A DNA stretch of 19,060 nt, taken from Bdellovibrio sp. (GTDB lineage Bacteria; Bdellovibrionota; Bdellovibrionia; Bdellovibrionales; Bdellovibrionaceae). The stretch covers positions 1 through 19,060 of the forward strand of contig JAHRXB010000199.1 in the NCBI GenBank assembly GCA_019104905.1. Direction: 5' to 3'. Of this stretch, positions 12,627 to 17,723 are shown piece by piece (within the stretch, counting starts at the first letter, position 1; every line of letters starts with the position of its first letter). The notes under the pieces are model-generated. The model did not search any database and had not been told where the DNA came from. It saw only the letters and a program-made list of their open reading frames with translations. A program made the position numbers and the translations under genes.

Positions 12627-12806
12627 GTGATACGTCTCATTTTTTTACAAATCTAGGCTTCAGTCCAGCAAGGGGGCCCAACAAAGGCGACAGACAAAGT
12701 TAATCTAACCATCTGAATTTGCATATATTTTTCATTTTTCTTGGTGACGAGTAAATGTCGCAAAGTTTATTGTCATAGAGGAGTTAGTCCCCAAAAGAGG
12801 TTACAC

Positions 12807-13565
12807 ATGCTTAAAGCATTTCTTATTTTTTGGAGCCTATTAGTAGGAGTCTCCTCAGCCCAAGGAGCCAAGAAGGTCATTCATATGGTCACCTTCAGCG
12901 CCCCCCCCTTTATGAGTGAAGATCTTCCAGAGCAAGGAGCTGGCGTCTACGCCTTTCGAGAAATTTTTCGCAAAGCCAACTACGAACTCAAAGTCACTTT
13001 TGCTCCCTATCTCAGAGCCAAGCGCCTGGTTTTACAAGAGGACCGTTATGCTGGCTTTTTCCCTGTCTCTCTTTTTAACCACATCCCTTCGGAGCTTAAG
13101 ATGTCCAAGATCATCTATCAAACTCCCTGGGTGTTGGCTGAAAGAAAGGACAAGGTCATAAACTGGCAAAACCCCAAAGATCTTGTTCCTTTTAAAATAG
13201 GCACCGTCACAGGATATGACATTGCACCTTCATTTAAAGATCTCTACAAATCTAACAAACTCAAACTGGAGTTCACCTCCAGCGATGAACTGAACCTTCT
13301 TAAGTTGGCAACCAAACGAGTTGATCTTATTTTCATCGAAGCAGGAATGTTTCAGTTCCTAACCAAAACCAGCCCCAAGCTGAAGGAATACCGAGAAGCC
13401 CTACAAATAAATAAGAAGATTGTGCAGATGGATCGATACGGATTGGCTTTTAAAAAGTCTCCCCAGTCTTTAAAATACCTAGAGACCTTCAATCAAATCG
13501 CCCAAGAAGAAGAATTCAACAACCTCATCCAAACCTACTTCCGAAGGTACGCCGTACCTTTTTGA
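12807..13565 (+). CDS. Periplasmic solute-binding-like protein (family 3 type), orphan
   Basis: The product is 252 residues. The ATG at 12807 is chosen because AGAGG lies 6 bases upstream and a signal peptide follows at once (MLKAFLIFWSLLVGVSSAQG, cleaved before AKKVIHM). A reading from 12741 would bury it. The body has the pattern of extracellular solute-binding protein family 3. An N-terminal VIHMVTFSAPPFMSEDLPEQGAGVYAFREIF resembles the usual PPF-G-D-E start. FKIGTVTGYDI is the hinge region, and VDLIFIEAGMFQFLT and YGLAFKKS match later family blocks. No permease or ATPase gene adjoins it, so it may serve a distant transporter or act as a sensor. The final codons (RRYAVPF and the stop) are formed by a REP-like element, so the C-terminus may have been altered by that insertion. 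Confidence 0.78.
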   Translation: MLKAFLIFWSLLVGVSSAQGAKKVIHMVTFSAPPFMSEDLPEQGAGVYAFREIFRKANYELKVTFAPYLRAKRLVLQEDRYAGFFPVSLFNHIPSELKMSKIIYQTPWVLAERKDKVINWQNPKDLVPFKIGTVTGYDIAPSFKDLYKSNKLKLEFTSSDELNLLKLATKRVDLIFIEAGMFQFLTKTSPKLKEYREALQINKKIVQMDRYGLAFKKSPQSLKYLETFNQIAQEEEFNNLIQTYFRRYAVPF

Positions 13566-13577
13566 AGTGCAGTGCGC
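13546..13577 (-). repeat. REP-like element, copy A (downstream of the RAYT gene)
   Basis: This 32-base element in minus orientation has the consensus nCGCrnyGCAm, then TTCAAAAA, then the hairpin GGTACGGCGTACC. It starts within the solute-binding protein gene (supplying its last codons and stop) and ends 3 bases from the RAYT stop codon. Read in the direction of the solute-binding gene it is a hairpin followed by TTTTTG, so it may act as that gene's terminator. It is inverted relative to copy B. Confidence 0.85.
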
Positions 13578-13580
13578 CAA

Positions 13581-14219
13581 TCAAACGATGTGGTTTTCCA
13601 AATAATGACTATTGGCCGTTCCCGAGTCTCGCGAGAATCCAAATTCTTTTCTCTTTAAGGCAAGTCGAATGGCCTCTCGGGACTCATCATCGAACTCTTC
13701 ATTAAGCCAACGCAACTGAGTTGCGGGGTTTTGAATGAGATCAAGAGTGTCATAGGCGGGAATATACAAATAGTCGAGCCCCAGGAGTCCACGCAAAGAG
13801 CTATAGGGATAGTCTTCTACCTTCTTGCAAAGTCCCGCCTGAACGGGATTCCGGTAAATGTATTTATATGCGTGTCGGTAGTAGATGGAATTCTTAATGA
13901 GAGACCAATGATAGGGCCCACCGAATATTTGATTTTCTCGATCTGTTTCCTCTCCCAATCGCTTACTCACTTCACGAAGAAGATAGTTCATCGCCACATC
14001 CAAATTCGCTTCTGGAGTTGAAATCAGCATATGAAAATGATTATTCATTAATACAAAGGAGTGAATCCTGACATCATAAGCTCTCCAAATGAAGTGCAGG
14101 TAGTTGGTGAAGTGCCCCCAAACAACGTCAAGCGGAGCTCCAAACCACTCGCTATTCGAGGTTCGGGCTGTTACGTGATAGGGATGTTCTGAGGTAGGGT
14201 AAAATTTTTTCCTTGGCAT
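13581..14219 (-). CDS. REP-associated tyrosine transposase (RAYT, Y1/HUH family)
   Basis: This 212-residue single-strand transposase is of the IS200/Y1 superfamily. The HUH metal motif is in FVLMNNHFHMLIS (His61 and His63). A candidate catalytic Tyr lies in SIYYRHAYKYIYRNPVQAGL (113-122), where YxxxNPVxAG is a hallmark of RAYT proteins. The N-terminal PRKKFYPTSEHPYHVTART is also typical of the group. RAYTs nick and move short REP hairpins in single-stranded DNA and are normally single-copy, domesticated-looking genes. Two inverted REP-like copies bracket this gene (13546-13577 and 14361-14392) and a third lies 2.3 kb away, the expected partner substrate. The ribosome site is poor, suggesting low expression. 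The frame is intact, so an active enzyme is possible. Family call is confident; the link to these repeats is inferred from position. Confidence 0.88.
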   Translation of the reverse strand: MPRKKFYPTSEHPYHVTARTSNSEWFGAPLDVVWGHFTNYLHFIWRAYDVRIHSFVLMNNHFHMLISTPEANLDVAMNYLLREVSKRLGEETDRENQIFGGPYHWSLIKNSIYYRHAYKYIYRNPVQAGLCKKVEDYPYSSLRGLLGLDYLYIPAYDTLDLIQNPATQLRWLNEEFDDESREAIRLALKRKEFGFSRDSGTANSHYLENHIV

Positions 14220-14313
14220 ATGGGGTCAACCTACCAATATATGGACCACGTTTTAAAGAAACCTACTAAACCCAGCACTCCTCCCCCTTCCGAAAATCGC
14301 CTCTTCACAATAG

Positions 14314-14344
14314 TTGACATCCCCCGTCCAAAAATGAATACATA
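14314..14344 (+). promoter_or_regulatory. Candidate promoter of the HD-domain gene
   Basis: A perfect -35 hexamer TTGACA (14314-14319) is followed after 19 bases by TACATA (14339-14344). The spacing is long and the -10 is imperfect; AATACA at spacing 17 is an alternative. It lies upstream of REP copy B, so the repeat would be in the transcribed leader. Confidence 0.4.
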
Positions 14345-14360
14345 GAGCCTCAGCCGCACA

Positions 14361-14392
14361 ACGCAGCGCAATTCAAAAAGGTACGGCGTACC
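14361..14392 (+). repeat. REP-like element, copy B (upstream of the RAYT gene, in the HD-gene leader)
   Basis: This is the same 32-base unit as copies A and C, in plus orientation. From TTCAAAAA through GGTACGGCGTACC it is identical in all three copies. It lies 4 bases before the GGGAGGGG ribosome site of the HD-domain gene, so its hairpin in the mRNA could influence translation initiation. With copy A it forms an inverted pair around the RAYT gene. Confidence 0.85.
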
Positions 14393-14408
14393 CTCGGGAG
14401 GGGATTGG

Positions 14409-15728
14409 ATGGAGATTCGCGATCCGGTACATGGTTCGATTTATTATTCTAATCAGGAAGTGGCCGTTCTTGACACCGCCGAATACCAGCGCCTTCGCGC
14501 GATCAAACAACTGGGTTATGCGGAATTCAGTTTTCCTGGAGCCACTCACAATCGGTATATTCACTCGATCGGAGTCGGACACTTAGCCGGAGAAACTTTC
14601 GACGCTATCTTTCGCGTTTATCCTTTCTCTAAACCCTCTGTAAAAACACGCTTCCGCCAAGTTCTTCGTCTTGGCGCTCTTCTTCATGATGTTGGGCACG
14701 GGCCTCTTAGTCACACCACCGAGCAAGTGATGCCTCATCTTTCTGAACTCAATATCAAACTATATAAAGAGCAAGAACAGTATGGCGATGAGGCCCATAC
14801 GGTGATGAATCACAATCGTCGCGCGAATCATGAAGACTACACCATTAAGTATGTTACCGACTCTCAGATTGCCGACACCATTCTTCAGCAATTTCCCGAT
14901 ATTCAACCCATCCATGTCGCTTGTCTTATCGACAAAGCCCTGCACTGTCCCGATGACTTCTTCATCGATGGCGGAGTCGATTTCAGACCCATCCTCAGTC
15001 AGCTTGTTTCCAGCGAGCTCGACGTGGATCGCATGGATTATCTAGAGAGAGACAGCTATTTCTGCGGCACCAATTACGGAAAGATTGATCTGTCCTGGCT
15101 TATTCAAAACATGACCTTTCATCGTCGCGAGAACAAAATGTTCCTCGCCCTGAATCGCCGCGCCCTCTACTCCTTCGATGACTTCTTACTTTCGCGCCAT
15201 CACATGCACTTGATGGTTTACTGTCATCACAAAAGCATCATCTATGAAGAGATGCTCAATCGCTATTTAACCTCCCCCGATTGCACCTTCGTGCTTCCAG
15301 GAGATATCAACGAGTACACGCGATACAACGACTATCGTCTTCATGAGCATCTCATCAGTGTCACAAATCCATGGGCACAAAGAATTGCCGAACGAAAGCC
15401 GTTCAAAGTTCTCATCGAACAACACAATACTTCCGAATCAGATCGTCCCGAGTTGATTAAGAAAGCCCTTGAGAATGAAGGTCTTGAGGTCATTCGCACC
15501 AGCTCTAAGGCGCGTCTTTCAAAATACCACACAGCTTCCCCGGAAGAGCGTGCTTTGCAAATCTACGTGGTGGATCAGTACGATCGCTGGGCTCAACCAG
15601 CGCCCATCAATCAGACGACGGAGATCTTCCAACGCTATGAAGGCGCTCGTATTATCGACCGCATCTATGTCTCTCCAGAGAACATCGACAAGGCCGACCA
15701 AATTTTAAAAGGATTGAAGCTCTCTTAA
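14409..15728 (+). CDS. HD-domain phosphohydrolase, dGTPase/YwfO-like
   Basis: The product is 439 residues. The start has GGAGG 7 bases upstream. HD-domain metal ligands are visible: His52 in YIHSIGVGHLA, the His93-Asp94 pair in LLHDVGHGPLSH, and a downstream Asp in SSELDVDRMDYLERDSYFCGTNYG (about 205-210). The opening MEIRDPVHGSIYYSNQEVAVLDTAEYQRLRAIKQLG is characteristic of the YwfO/SAMHD1-like branch of deoxynucleotide triphosphohydrolases, whose bacterial members are about 430-460 residues. Expected activity is hydrolysis of dNTPs to deoxynucleosides and triphosphate, or of a related phosphoester; the substrate cannot be read from sequence. The gene stands alone, between a RAYT gene and a convergent operon, with its own likely promoter and a REP-like element in the leader. 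Confidence 0.9.
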   Translation: MEIRDPVHGSIYYSNQEVAVLDTAEYQRLRAIKQLGYAEFSFPGATHNRYIHSIGVGHLAGETFDAIFRVYPFSKPSVKTRFRQVLRLGALLHDVGHGPLSHTTEQVMPHLSELNIKLYKEQEQYGDEAHTVMNHNRRANHEDYTIKYVTDSQIADTILQQFPDIQPIHVACLIDKALHCPDDFFIDGGVDFRPILSQLVSSELDVDRMDYLERDSYFCGTNYGKIDLSWLIQNMTFHRRENKMFLALNRRALYSFDDFLLSRHHMHLMVYCHHKSIIYEEMLNRYLTSPDCTFVLPGDINEYTRYNDYRLHEHLISVTNPWAQRIAERKPFKVLIEQHNTSESDRPELIKKALENEGLEVIRTSSKARLSKYHTASPEERALQIYVVDQYDRWAQPAPINQTTEIFQRYEGARIIDRIYVSPENIDKADQILKGLKLS

Positions 15729-15737
15729 AAGAGCTTC
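15716..15737. terminator. Convergent stem-loop between the HD gene and the SDR gene
   Basis: GAAGCTCT (15716-15723) pairs perfectly with AGAGCTTC (15730-15737); the loop contains the HD-gene stop codon. It lies between two convergent genes with only 9 bases between their stops. T-runs are weak on both sides, so efficiency is uncertain. Confidence 0.5.
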
Positions 15738-16496
15738 TTAACTTAAAGAGATCACTTGTCCGTTCACTGCAGCCCCATACTGGCTGACCAGATAGGTGAT
15801 CGTGTTGGTCACCTTTTCCGGTTCCGTAATTTTTAGATGAGGCTCTTTTTCACGAAGTTTTTCGACGGCCTCTTTGATGGATTTTGCTTCAGGATGTTGC
15901 GCCAGAATAAACTCTTCCGTTAATCCCAGCTTAAGTACATTCACCGTAATATTAAATTCAGAGACTTGCTTTGCCAACGCTTGCGCAAATGGCACCAAAG
16001 CCCCCCGTGCACCCGCCAGAATAGGGTCCGGGTAAGACTCATTCAGAAGATATAAAATACGACCGCGCTTACGGTTCTTAAGGAAGTTCAAAACCGCATG
16101 AGTCAAAAGCACCGAACTCTTGAAGTTGTGTTGAACTTCATCGTCCAAATAACTTAAAGCCTCACCAATTTTATAGCGATTGGGTTTATTGTATGTTTGG
16201 GCATCGATAAACAAATCCACGCTTCCGAAGGCTTGTGCCGCAGACCCGACTGCTTCCTTGATATCCTCAGGCGTTTTCATGGGTGATTTAAGACTGAGAG
16301 CTCGGCCAAATTTCGGATTGATTTCTCGCCCATCGTTGATTTGATTGCAAAAACGTTGGCTGGCGGCATTGTCAAAATCGAGAAGAACGCAGTCTGAACC
16401 CATTTGAGTCAGACCCATCATCAAACTTTGCACCGTTGTTGAAAAGGGCCCTACGATAAGGGCCGTGCGTTCTCGAAGATTAAATCCATTTTCCAT
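15738..16496 (-). CDS. Short-chain dehydrogenase/reductase homologue lacking catalytic residues
   Basis: The product is 252 residues, the classic SDR length. Overall order matches the family: a beta-alpha start (RTALIVGPFSTTVQSLMMGL), an acidic residue after the second strand (LLDFD), VDLFIDAQ where NNAG is expected, RGRILYLLNES, a GARGALVPFAQALAKQV helix and ITVNVLKLG, with VNGQVISLS at the end. Key residues are missing. The glycine-rich TGxxxGxG is VGPFSTTV, NNAG is replaced, and the YxxxK pair reads L160 and R164. It is therefore probably not a normal oxidoreductase. It follows the thiolase gene in the same direction, with 45 bases between them holding REP copy C. GAGG lies 4 bases before the ATG. 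An origin from a PhaB/FabG-like acetoacetyl-CoA reductase next to its thiolase is plausible but unproven. Confidence 0.8.
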   Translation of the reverse strand: MENGFNLRERTALIVGPFSTTVQSLMMGLTQMGSDCVLLDFDNAASQRFCNQINDGREINPKFGRALSLKSPMKTPEDIKEAVGSAAQAFGSVDLFIDAQTYNKPNRYKIGEALSYLDDEVQHNFKSSVLLTHAVLNFLKNRKRGRILYLLNESYPDPILAGARGALVPFAQALAKQVSEFNITVNVLKLGLTEEFILAQHPEAKSIKEAVEKLREKEPHLKITEPEKVTNTITYLVSQYGAAVNGQVISLS

Positions 16497-16509
16497 GAAA
16501 CCTCAATTG

Positions 16510-16541
16510 CCGCGATGCACTTCAAAAAGGTACGGCGTACC
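16510..16541 (+). repeat. REP-like element, copy C (thiolase-SDR junction)
   Basis: This is the third copy of the 32-base unit, in plus orientation, directly touching the thiolase stop codon (16542-16544). On the operon's own (minus) strand it reads as the hairpin GGTACGCCGTACC followed by TTTTTG, like a small intrinsic terminator. It could reduce transcription into the SDR-like gene. Confidence 0.85.
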
Positions 16542-17723
16542 CTAAAGTTTTTCGATGATGATGGCTATGCCTTGGCCGCCGCCTATGCAGGCTGAGCCGA
16601 GAGCGTATTTTGCGTTTCGGCGATGAAGCTCGTAAACAAGGTGATTCATGATACGAGTTCCAGAGGCACCCAAAGGATGGCCGACAGCGATGGCTCCACC
16701 ATTGACGTTGGTTTTTGCTGGATCTAATTTCAATTCTTTTTCGACAGCTAGATATTGAGCGGCGAAAGCTTCATTGACTTCGATAAGATCCATTTGCTCC
16801 AAGGTCATGTTCGCTTTTTTTAAAGCCAAGCGTGCAGCGCCCGCAGGACCAATGCCCATGATCGTCGGATCACAACCCACCGATGCATAACTCACGATGC
16901 GAGCCAGGGGTTTTAATCCCAATTCTTTCGCTTTTGATTCACTCATCAATAATGAGCAGGCAGCTCCATCCACGATCCCCGAAGCAGAGGCCGCCGTTAC
17001 CAGTCCCTCTTTTTTAAACAAAGACTTCAAAGTCGCAATTTTCTCTAGCGTAGAATCCGGCTTGGGATGTTCGTCCTTATCAACCACCACCGCGCCCTTG
17101 CGCCCCTCAACCGTCACTGGCGTAATTTCTTGCGCAAAGTGACCTTTATCAAAAGCTGCTTTGTAACGTTGCTGACTTTGAATCGAGTACTTGTCACACT
17201 GCTCACGAGTGAGGCCATACTTTTCACCCAAGTTTTCGGCTGTGATCGCCATGGGCATCTTGGCATAAGCGTCTGTCAATGCGGAGGTCATTAAGTCTTC
17301 CAACTCAAAATTCCCCATGCGCATTCCATCAAAACGAACTTTGCGCGCCACATACGGCACCAAAGACATCTGCTCAACACCACCGGCAAGAACCGCCGTG
17401 GCCTCCCCACACTGAATCATTTGTGCGGCACTCACCCAAGACTGAAAACCACTTCCACAAAGTCTGTTCACAACAAAAGCACCCGTACTGACAGGGACTC
17501 CCGTTTTTAGACCAATATGTCGAGGAAGATAAGCGGCATCGGCACCCGACTGCACGACATTTCCGAAGATGACATGATCAATTTTTTCAGGCGAAAGCCC
17601 CGCCTGCTCAAGTGTGGCTTTGGCGGCAACCACTCCAAGATCCGTTGCAGACACATCCTTTAGAGACCCACCAAACGCTCCAAAGGGAGTTCTTTTTCCA
17701 GAGATAAAAACAATATTTTCCAT
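16542..17723 (-). CDS. Acetyl-CoA C-acetyltransferase (thiolase II)
   Basis: This biosynthetic/degradative thiolase interconverts two acetyl-CoA with acetoacetyl-CoA. The protein is 393 residues from the ATG at 17723, which gives the canonical MENIVFISGKRTPFGAFGG. A longer frame from 17801 adds unrelated residues. The catalytic residues are all present: nucleophile Cys89 in VNRLCGSGFQS, the NEAFAAQ block, His349 in AVGHPLGASG and Cys379 in SACIGGGQG. These positions agree with the well-studied Zoogloea enzyme. No clear Shine-Dalgarno site precedes it. It lies 55 bases after the small secreted-protein gene and before the SDR-like gene, with REP copy C touching its stop. Possible roles are fatty-acid breakdown or acetoacetyl-CoA supply; the sequence does not decide between them. 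Confidence 0.93.
   Translation of the reverse strand: MENIVFISGKRTPFGAFGGSLKDVSATDLGVVAAKATLEQAGLSPEKIDHVIFGNVVQSGADAAYLPRHIGLKTGVPVSTGAFVVNRLCGSGFQSWVSAAQMIQCGEATAVLAGGVEQMSLVPYVARKVRFDGMRMGNFELEDLMTSALTDAYAKMPMAITAENLGEKYGLTREQCDKYSIQSQQRYKAAFDKGHFAQEITPVTVEGRKGAVVVDKDEHPKPDSTLEKIATLKSLFKKEGLVTAASASGIVDGAACSLLMSESKAKELGLKPLARIVSYASVGCDPTIMGIGPAGAARLALKKANMTLEQMDLIEVNEAFAAQYLAVEKELKLDPAKTNVNGGAIAVGHPLGASGTRIMNHLVYELHRRNAKYALGSACIGGGQGIAIIIEKL

Follow-up and report, generated by a model that had tools for sequence, protein, structure and literature searches.

A RAYT gene and its hairpin repeats in Bdellovibrio: a probable REP/RAYT-type system without a GTAG foot

The RAYT locus and its repeat

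A gene for a REP-associated tyrosine transposase (RAYT; REP, repetitive extragenic palindromic) lies between two inverted copies of a short hairpin repeat in a 19,060-nucleotide stretch of DNA from Bdellovibrio sp. (assembly GCA_019104905.1, contig JAHRXB010000199.1), which is referred to here as the window. The genome that contains the window, G000, is a draft of 2.93 Mb and 88% complete. It was compared with the genomes of its genus (24 genomes) and with a wider set of relatives (147 genomes). The features of the locus are listed below; comparisons with published systems follow the cited passages of each source.

13546..13558, plus strand: hairpin of copy 1, GGTACGCCGTACC, located by sequence search (the strand of the T-run is the plus strand)
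13559..13579, plus strand: T-run, word AAGTGC and tail of copy 1; a TGA inside it terminates the upstream open reading frame (ORF) 12741-13565
13581..14219, minus strand: RAYT, predicted TnpA-REP-like Y1/HUH transposase of 212 residues (Pfam, NCBIfam, 4er8 alignment, AlphaFold2 model)
14359..14379, minus strand: T-run, word AATTGC and tail of copy 2
14380..14392, minus strand: hairpin of copy 2, 16 nt ahead of where the HD-domain gene has its start codon
14409..15728, plus strand: HD-domain protein gene (Pfam), the landmark by which the RAYT locus, fixed on the chromosome, is recognised across the genus
16508..16528, minus strand: T-run, word AAGTGC and tail of copy 3
16529..16541, minus strand: hairpin of copy 3, immediately past the thiolase stop codon
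16542..17723, minus strand: thiolase gene flanking copy 3; start set at 17723, the open frame reaching 17801

An exact search of the window finds the 21-base sequence TTCAAAAAGGTACGGCGTACC three times (at 13546-13566 on the minus strand and at 14372-14392 and 16521-16541 on the plus strand), and no occurrence with up to three mismatches was found in 200 dinucleotide shuffles of the window. The 11 bases that precede it read G-CGC-ACT-GCA-C, A-CGC-AGC-GCA-A and C-CGC-GAT-GCA-C. Both the identity of the 21 bases and the fixed places of CGC and GCA had been noted in a first-pass annotation of this DNA, and the exact search confirms them in all three copies. Copies 1 and 2 are inverted and enclose the minus-strand ORF 13581-14219, which is unbroken, and copy 3 stands 2149 bases from copy 2, in agreement with the earlier description of an intact RAYT between two inverted copies with a third 2.1 kb away. 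The upstream ORF 12741-13565 takes its final codons and stop (YAVPF) from copy 1, and an ORF end of this type is retained, slightly altered, in the related genome G003.

Judged from its sequence and a predicted structure, the gene encodes an unbroken HUH/Tyr protein of TnpA-REP fold. Pfam at E 0.001 detects Y1_Tnp alone (E 2.9e-6) and no C-terminal helix-turn-helix (Bac_DnaA_C or similar), and the NCBIfam model 'REP-associated tyrosine transposase' matches with E 1.3e-18 and 67.3 bits, below the model cut-off of 80. In a sequence alignment with the E. coli TnpAREP structure 4er8 (E 4.4e-9), H61 and H63 fall at the HUH motif (N60-H61-F62-H63) and the predicted catalytic residue Y120 stands opposite Y115, with Asn124 at Y+4; H61, H63, Y120 and N124 are invariant across 42 aligned sequences. 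Y115F is a catalytic mutant of E. coli TnpA-REP (PMC8266576), and N119 of that protein, the position occupied by N124 here, has been named essential (PMC6006769). The AlphaFold2 model has a mean predicted local distance difference test (pLDDT) score of 91.2 and a predicted template modelling (pTM) score of 0.88, and its best solved match in Foldseek is again 4er8, with E 6.4e-9 and TM-scores of 0.57 (query) and 0.71 (target). Compared by motif with the subclass table of Quentin et al. (PMC6006769), NHFH fits subclasses 2.1 and 2.4 and YIYRNP fits no Tyr motif listed there. A PHROGs search returned one family of unknown function. A RAYT search of G000 at E 0.01 gave 2 matches only, the second of which, another RAYT (C294:12537-13139; L032, L041), is 45% identical and lies at a contig end that leaves only 35 bases of one flank.

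Counted genome-wide, the repeat core has many copies: the palindrome GGTACG[CG]CGTACC occurs exactly 31 times in G000, followed by TTTTTG in 29 cases, by TATTTG in one and by TTTCAC in one, and three near variants bring the number of sites to 34. Read with the T-run after the hairpin, the repeat consists of GGTACGCCGTACC, TTTTTG (or TTTTGG, TTTTTC), a six-base word specific to the lineage, three free bases and approximately GC[GA]T[TC]A; on the word-first strand the layout is about T[GA]A-CGC-NNN-word(6 nt)-CAAAAA-GGTACGGCGTACC. Ahead of the hairpin, the six-base consensus is CAAAAA for most of the nine genomes read (six); G022 and G010 have CCAAAA and G008 has GAAAAA, so that the earlier observation of a stem preceded by an A-run and lacking a GTAG foot is right for the family as a whole. 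A GGGGWSAS motif is present in no consensus of these nine genomes. The proposed check for mostly paired, inverted copies came out negative, there being no opposite-strand pair within 80 nt among 33 G000 sites and four such pairs among the 13 sites of G015. An alternative fold, in which the tail pairs with CGCCGTAC, was rejected as a shared feature because the share of copies with at least seven net pairs is only 0.00 to 0.05 in G003, G004, G019 and G008; it is 0.64 in G022 and 0.82 in G010 (0.12 with shuffled tails), 0.24 in G000 (0.03 shuffled), 0.15 in G015 (0.05) and 0.10 in G020 (0.02).

A search of 84,980 named genomes located the 19-mer GGTACGCCGTACCTTTTTG in 45 stretches. Their titles name Bdellovibrio or groups of Bdellovibrionota, with the exception of a single short contig that carries the label Epsilonproteobacteria. 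With the loop base left free, the 19-mer is present in 13 of the 147 relatives, 9 of them among the 24 genomes of the genus; the remaining 4, from outside the genus, have between 1 and 3 matches each, and the highest count among the 147 genomes is 42 (G019). These counts, the 19-mer counts of G003 and G000, the repeat-match counts of the genus and those of a second repeat class described below may score one near-symmetric site on both strands.

Repeat number and placement across the genus

A RAYT ortholog of at least 63% identity was found in 6 of the 24 genus genomes (G000, G004, G015, G019, G020 and G022); G008, G013 and G016 gave no RAYT match at E 1e-10, and matches in the remaining genomes are at most 48% identical. 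These figures, like the repeat-match counts for the genus and those for a second repeat class described below, are among the matches listed. The HD-domain gene is present in all 24 genomes, and the RAYT lies directly upstream of it in all six genomes that hold the ortholog. Both flanking repeats are recognisable at five of the six ortholog loci, one of those in G004 being partial.

The six genomes with the ortholog, in the order given, contain 31, 28, 13, 38, 23 and 33 repeat matches, and the 18 without it contain 21, 13, 10, 5, 5, 1 and twelve zeros (Mann-Whitney p 2e-4, indicative only since the genomes are related). The proposal that copy number follows the presence of this RAYT clade is thus upheld, every ortholog holder having at least 13 matches and 12 of the 18 others having none.

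The nearest relative of the window's genome, G003 (98% identity of the HD protein), offers a close view of a locus from which the gene is absent. There, a damaged left repeat runs directly into the HD promoter region. G003 probably lost the RAYT rather than never having it, because the gene is at the same locus in six other genomes. Exact 19-mers number 13 in G003 against 29 in G000, and 12 of the 14 G003 sites found with the loop base left free are collinear with G000 sites (L118 matches G000 at another offset and L128 has no G000 match). The 19-mer is altered in G003 at 8 sites that are intact in G000, and the reverse case was not seen (sign test p 0.008); this check for degenerate copies covered 12 G003 places against 3 G000 places because the G003 listing is longer. 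G003 also has, at C49:2507-3059 (L077), an inverted pair of the loop variant GGTACTCCGTACC around about 530 bases, with no RAYT seen inside.

The first-pass annotation proposed a test of whether the copies are mostly extragenic; with a home-made gene caller, whose starts are rough and which missed the window RAYT itself, only 8 of 126 sites fall inside called genes. At 74 of 167 sites the hairpin follows the end of a long ORF by no more than 12 nt, and in 36 of these by exactly 2 nt; an ORF end within 12 nt precedes 793 of 20,000 random positions. Such placement, together with the TTTTTG that follows the hairpin in most copies and RNA folds of -8.4 to -11.6 kcal/mol for the three window copies, is what would be expected if the repeats, each a hairpin with a T-run, were intrinsic terminators and their association with the RAYT were incidental. 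We consider this improbable. The left neighbour of the 126 sites is co-oriented in 58 cases and opposed in 56 (4 unknown, by the same caller), without the bias towards upstream gene ends that terminators should have, and it is because of this even orientation that termination is rejected as the main function. In addition, copy 2 sits just ahead of the HD gene start, half of the genus genomes (12 of 24) have no match, and a terminator needs no particular word beyond its T-run, yet the word is lineage-specific. Copies that are co-oriented with their upstream gene may still terminate transcription. The placement at gene borders may be due either to target choice or to selection.

Lineage words at orthologous sites

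Words vary rather little within any one lineage. The commonest words are AA[GT]TGC or CATTGC in G000, G003 and G020, GAGTGC in G015, CCACTC in G004, AGGCTC in G019, GGGTGC after TTTTGG in G022 and G010, and GGATGC after TTTTTC in G008. Minority words occur within genomes, 5 of 22 sites in G019 being of another type. The set of words and sites included 33 of the 34 listed G000 sites and samples of 22 sites from G019, 22 from G022, 11 from G010 and 8 from G008; places L278 and L285 yielded no site. When each copy was left out in turn and assigned by its six word columns, 145 of 167 copies went to their own lineage, compared with a mean of 28.6 and a maximum of 58 in 500 label shuffles, lineage groups A (G000, G003, G020) and E (G022, G010) having been defined after the words were inspected. 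Within the 14 cross-lineage groups of sites that share neighbouring genes, two of which flank the RAYT, 44 of 49 copies were assigned to their own lineage. Adding the two preceding columns raised these figures to 152 of 167 overall and 46 of 49 in the cross-lineage groups.

Two orthologous sites are informative about the age of the copies. The first precedes a gene of MEPIG type, which we take to be TrmO-like. GCGTCAA stands there in 24 of 24 genomes at a similar distance from the start, with an intervening insertion in G019; the hairpin is intact in nine genomes and a remnant in several others. All nine intact copies carry the word of their own lineage or one near it: AATTGC in G000, G003 and G020, ACACTC in G004, GGATG after TTTTTC in G008, and G-rich words in G010, G011, G012 and G022. 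The word at this site appears from the sequences to have been replaced in place. The three free bases here are CTC or CTT in G000, G003, G020, G009, G018, G001, G017 and G008, and the word differs. Constant free bases beside a differing word argue for short tract or point changes rather than replacement of the whole element at this site; the other groups of sites lack such constancy of the free bases.

The second site is the end of the thiolase gene, where copy 3 lies. Among 23 genomes read, a repeat lies 0 to 2 nt past the stop codon in five, each with its own lineage word, G019 has a repeat 13 nt on with its own word, the repeat of G020 is broken, and 16 have none; in some of the empty genomes the next gene begins within 0 to 14 nt or overlaps. 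From both sites it follows that copies can be old and re-worded and that a site may either hold a repeat or lack one. The shared sites could also have arisen by separate insertions into one and the same position, which is least likely at the MEPIG site. For most groups this could be the explanation, because the immediate flanks of cross-lineage pairs are only 0.32 to 0.35 alike without gaps.

A change of word in place with the flanks kept resembles selection on binding sites, and many copies lie at gene borders. The repeats might then be sites of a host DNA-binding protein, either a regulator or a nucleoid factor, whose evolution is coupled to that of the word, and the RAYT would simply carry two such sites. 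We judge this a little less probable again than a terminator family, since copy number follows the RAYT, the thiolase site holds a repeat in some species but none in 16 of 23 genomes, and other RAYTs of the phylum are flanked by inverted repeats of their own (26 of 31 phylum RAYT loci, the window's among them, have an inverted pair within 500 bases with a score of 13 or more, a count without a shuffled control). A conventional IS200/IS605 insertion sequence that shed its ends around the genome would share the HUH/Tyr fold but is very improbable, given that the ortholog occupies one locus in all six genomes that hold it, that Y+4 of the RAYT is Asn in place of the Gln of IS200-type members (PMC6006769), and that the gene is not multi-copy in G000, the second match there being 45% alike.

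Other short elements were seen in contact with the repeats. Compound elements at L182, L183 and L195 (G019) and at L152 and L156 (G020) have a window-type repeat opposite GGTGCC[TA]GGCACC or GAAGCAGGCACC, with a shared spacer. A small hairpin, CCCACC-N-GGTGGG or CCCTCC-N-GGAGGG, lies inside broken or neighbouring copies at L319 (G019), L290 (G020), L190 and the G019 RAYT flank, and is perhaps another short element landing in these repeats.

A probable REP/RAYT-type system and its known relatives

We conclude that Bdellovibrio probably has here a REPtron-like system of the REP/RAYT type, whose recognition layout differs and which has no GTAG foot; the REP/RAYT interpretation of the first-pass annotation is supported. 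In such a system the RAYT would bind the repeat as a folded single strand, hairpin and word together, probably at replication forks, and would cut and rejoin at the bound repeat. Cutting and rejoining could copy repeats to gene borders and keep the copies matched to the specificity of the RAYT. The population of words would follow a shift in that specificity, and the copies would decay after loss of the RAYT. The homogeneity of the word could be caused either by rewriting or by selection.

Several points weigh against this conclusion. Binding, cutting and movement are predictions. Consensus repeats of the nine genomes read have no GTAG or GTGG foot beside the hairpin, the copy number is modest (tens, not more than 100), and copies are mostly single, REP singlets being described in PMC8049555 as usually decaying remnants of REPINs (REP doublets forming hairpins). 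Three genomes without the ortholog, G003, G010 and G008, still hold 10 to 21 matches, a retention that we read as recent loss of the RAYT. G019 has a single recognisable flanking repeat within 500 bases of its RAYT, and at the MEPIG site both G015 and G019, where the RAYT is present, have a decayed or interrupted copy and none intact. Of the eight altered sites in G003, two differ by a single loop base only and one in the T-run only. Several of the compared genomes, G000 included, are drafts, and the p-values overstate independence because the genomes are related.

A more tentative proposal, which we regard as rather unlikely, is that the RAYT is a repeat editor that rewrites the words of standing copies by short-tract strand exchange beside the hairpin. 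If true, ancient copies would be re-coded in place as specificity drifts, not replaced by new insertions. The system bears on the way in which RAYTs select their repeats and on a possible role of RAYTs in repeat upkeep besides spread. Since the hairpin is constant and a word of 6 nt varies among genomes with orthologous RAYTs, specificity should be mappable by swapping words, and the same hairpin with a species-own six-letter word makes the recognition code of the repeat easy to test. G000 and G003, which are closely related and of which only G000 has the RAYT, amount to a natural deletion experiment.

Many RAYT loci of the phylum share a plan of a GG..CC element, a T-run and a GCG tail. By eye, GTAG is inside the matched repeat in L052, L057, L058, L063 and L067, in no case as a confirmed hairpin foot. 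The genus also has another class of repeat, GGTGCCTGCTTCTTTTTT, with 18 to 38 matches in each of G001, G007, G010, G017, G018 and G020. Among the places listed, the base after it is mostly G in three genomes (G018, G001 and G017), whereas G005 has mostly A, G010 T and G007 C. In G018 and G001 this class forms opposed pairs about 50 bases apart that are REPIN-like.

No published account of Bdellovibrio RAYT, REP or REPIN repeats, or of this palindrome, was found in the open-licence PMC literature. As far as searches show, the phylum, the reversal of constant and variable parts and the in-place re-wording are new; for the re-wording, no report was seen in a search that was not a full one. The first-pass annotation had further suggested that this could be a distinct repeat class. 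The GTAG foot is indeed missing; as a kind, flanking repeats without GTAG are not entirely new. TIRYT/TIRtrons are RAYT-like genes with non-GTAG inverted repeats (Di Nocera et al. 2013, PMC3733652), and Quentin et al. (2018, PMC6006769) describe repeats that lack GT[AG]G, and 'atypical secondary structures', for TnpAY1 subclass 2.6 and class 3.

The Bdellovibrio system resembles TIRYT/TIRtrons in having a RAYT-like gene with longer, non-GTAG flanking inverted repeats, some of which form moderate repeat families (PMC3733652). It differs in that the Bdellovibrio repeat holds a nearly invariant palindrome of 13 nt, its consensus is without GGGGWSAS, a motif reported for a majority of the flanking repeats and not for all (PMC3733652, PMC6006769), and its RAYT has no C-terminal helix-turn-helix by Pfam. 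Like subclass 2.6 and class 3 it has repeats without GT[AG]G, and like 2.6 it has copies elsewhere in the genome, but the hosts differ, 2.6 being found mostly in Bacteroidetes and class 3 in Planctomycetes, Acidobacteria and Proteobacteria (PMC6006769).

The closest parallels are with REPtrons. Gammaproteobacteria have inverted REPs around RAYTs, with co-evolution and a tie between gene and copy number (PMC2817692), and it has been described that REPs can differ between orthologous RAYTs and that RAYTs may have been lost (PMC3686654). The REPtrons of Pseudomonas, Stenotrophomonas and E. coli share with the Bdellovibrio system an HUH/Tyr protein of the same predicted fold, bracketing inverted repeats and a fixed locus (PMC2817692, PMC3686654, PMC8266576), as well as a repeat number tied to the gene and orthologous RAYTs with differing repeats (PMC2817692, PMC3686654). 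REPtrons have more than 100 copies, in pairs, in contrast to the tens of mostly single copies in Bdellovibrio, and in REPtrons the GTAG is constant and the palindrome varies, whereas in Bdellovibrio the palindrome is constant, GTAG is absent, and it is a 6-nt word across the A-run that varies (PMC2817692, PMC3686654, PMC8266576).

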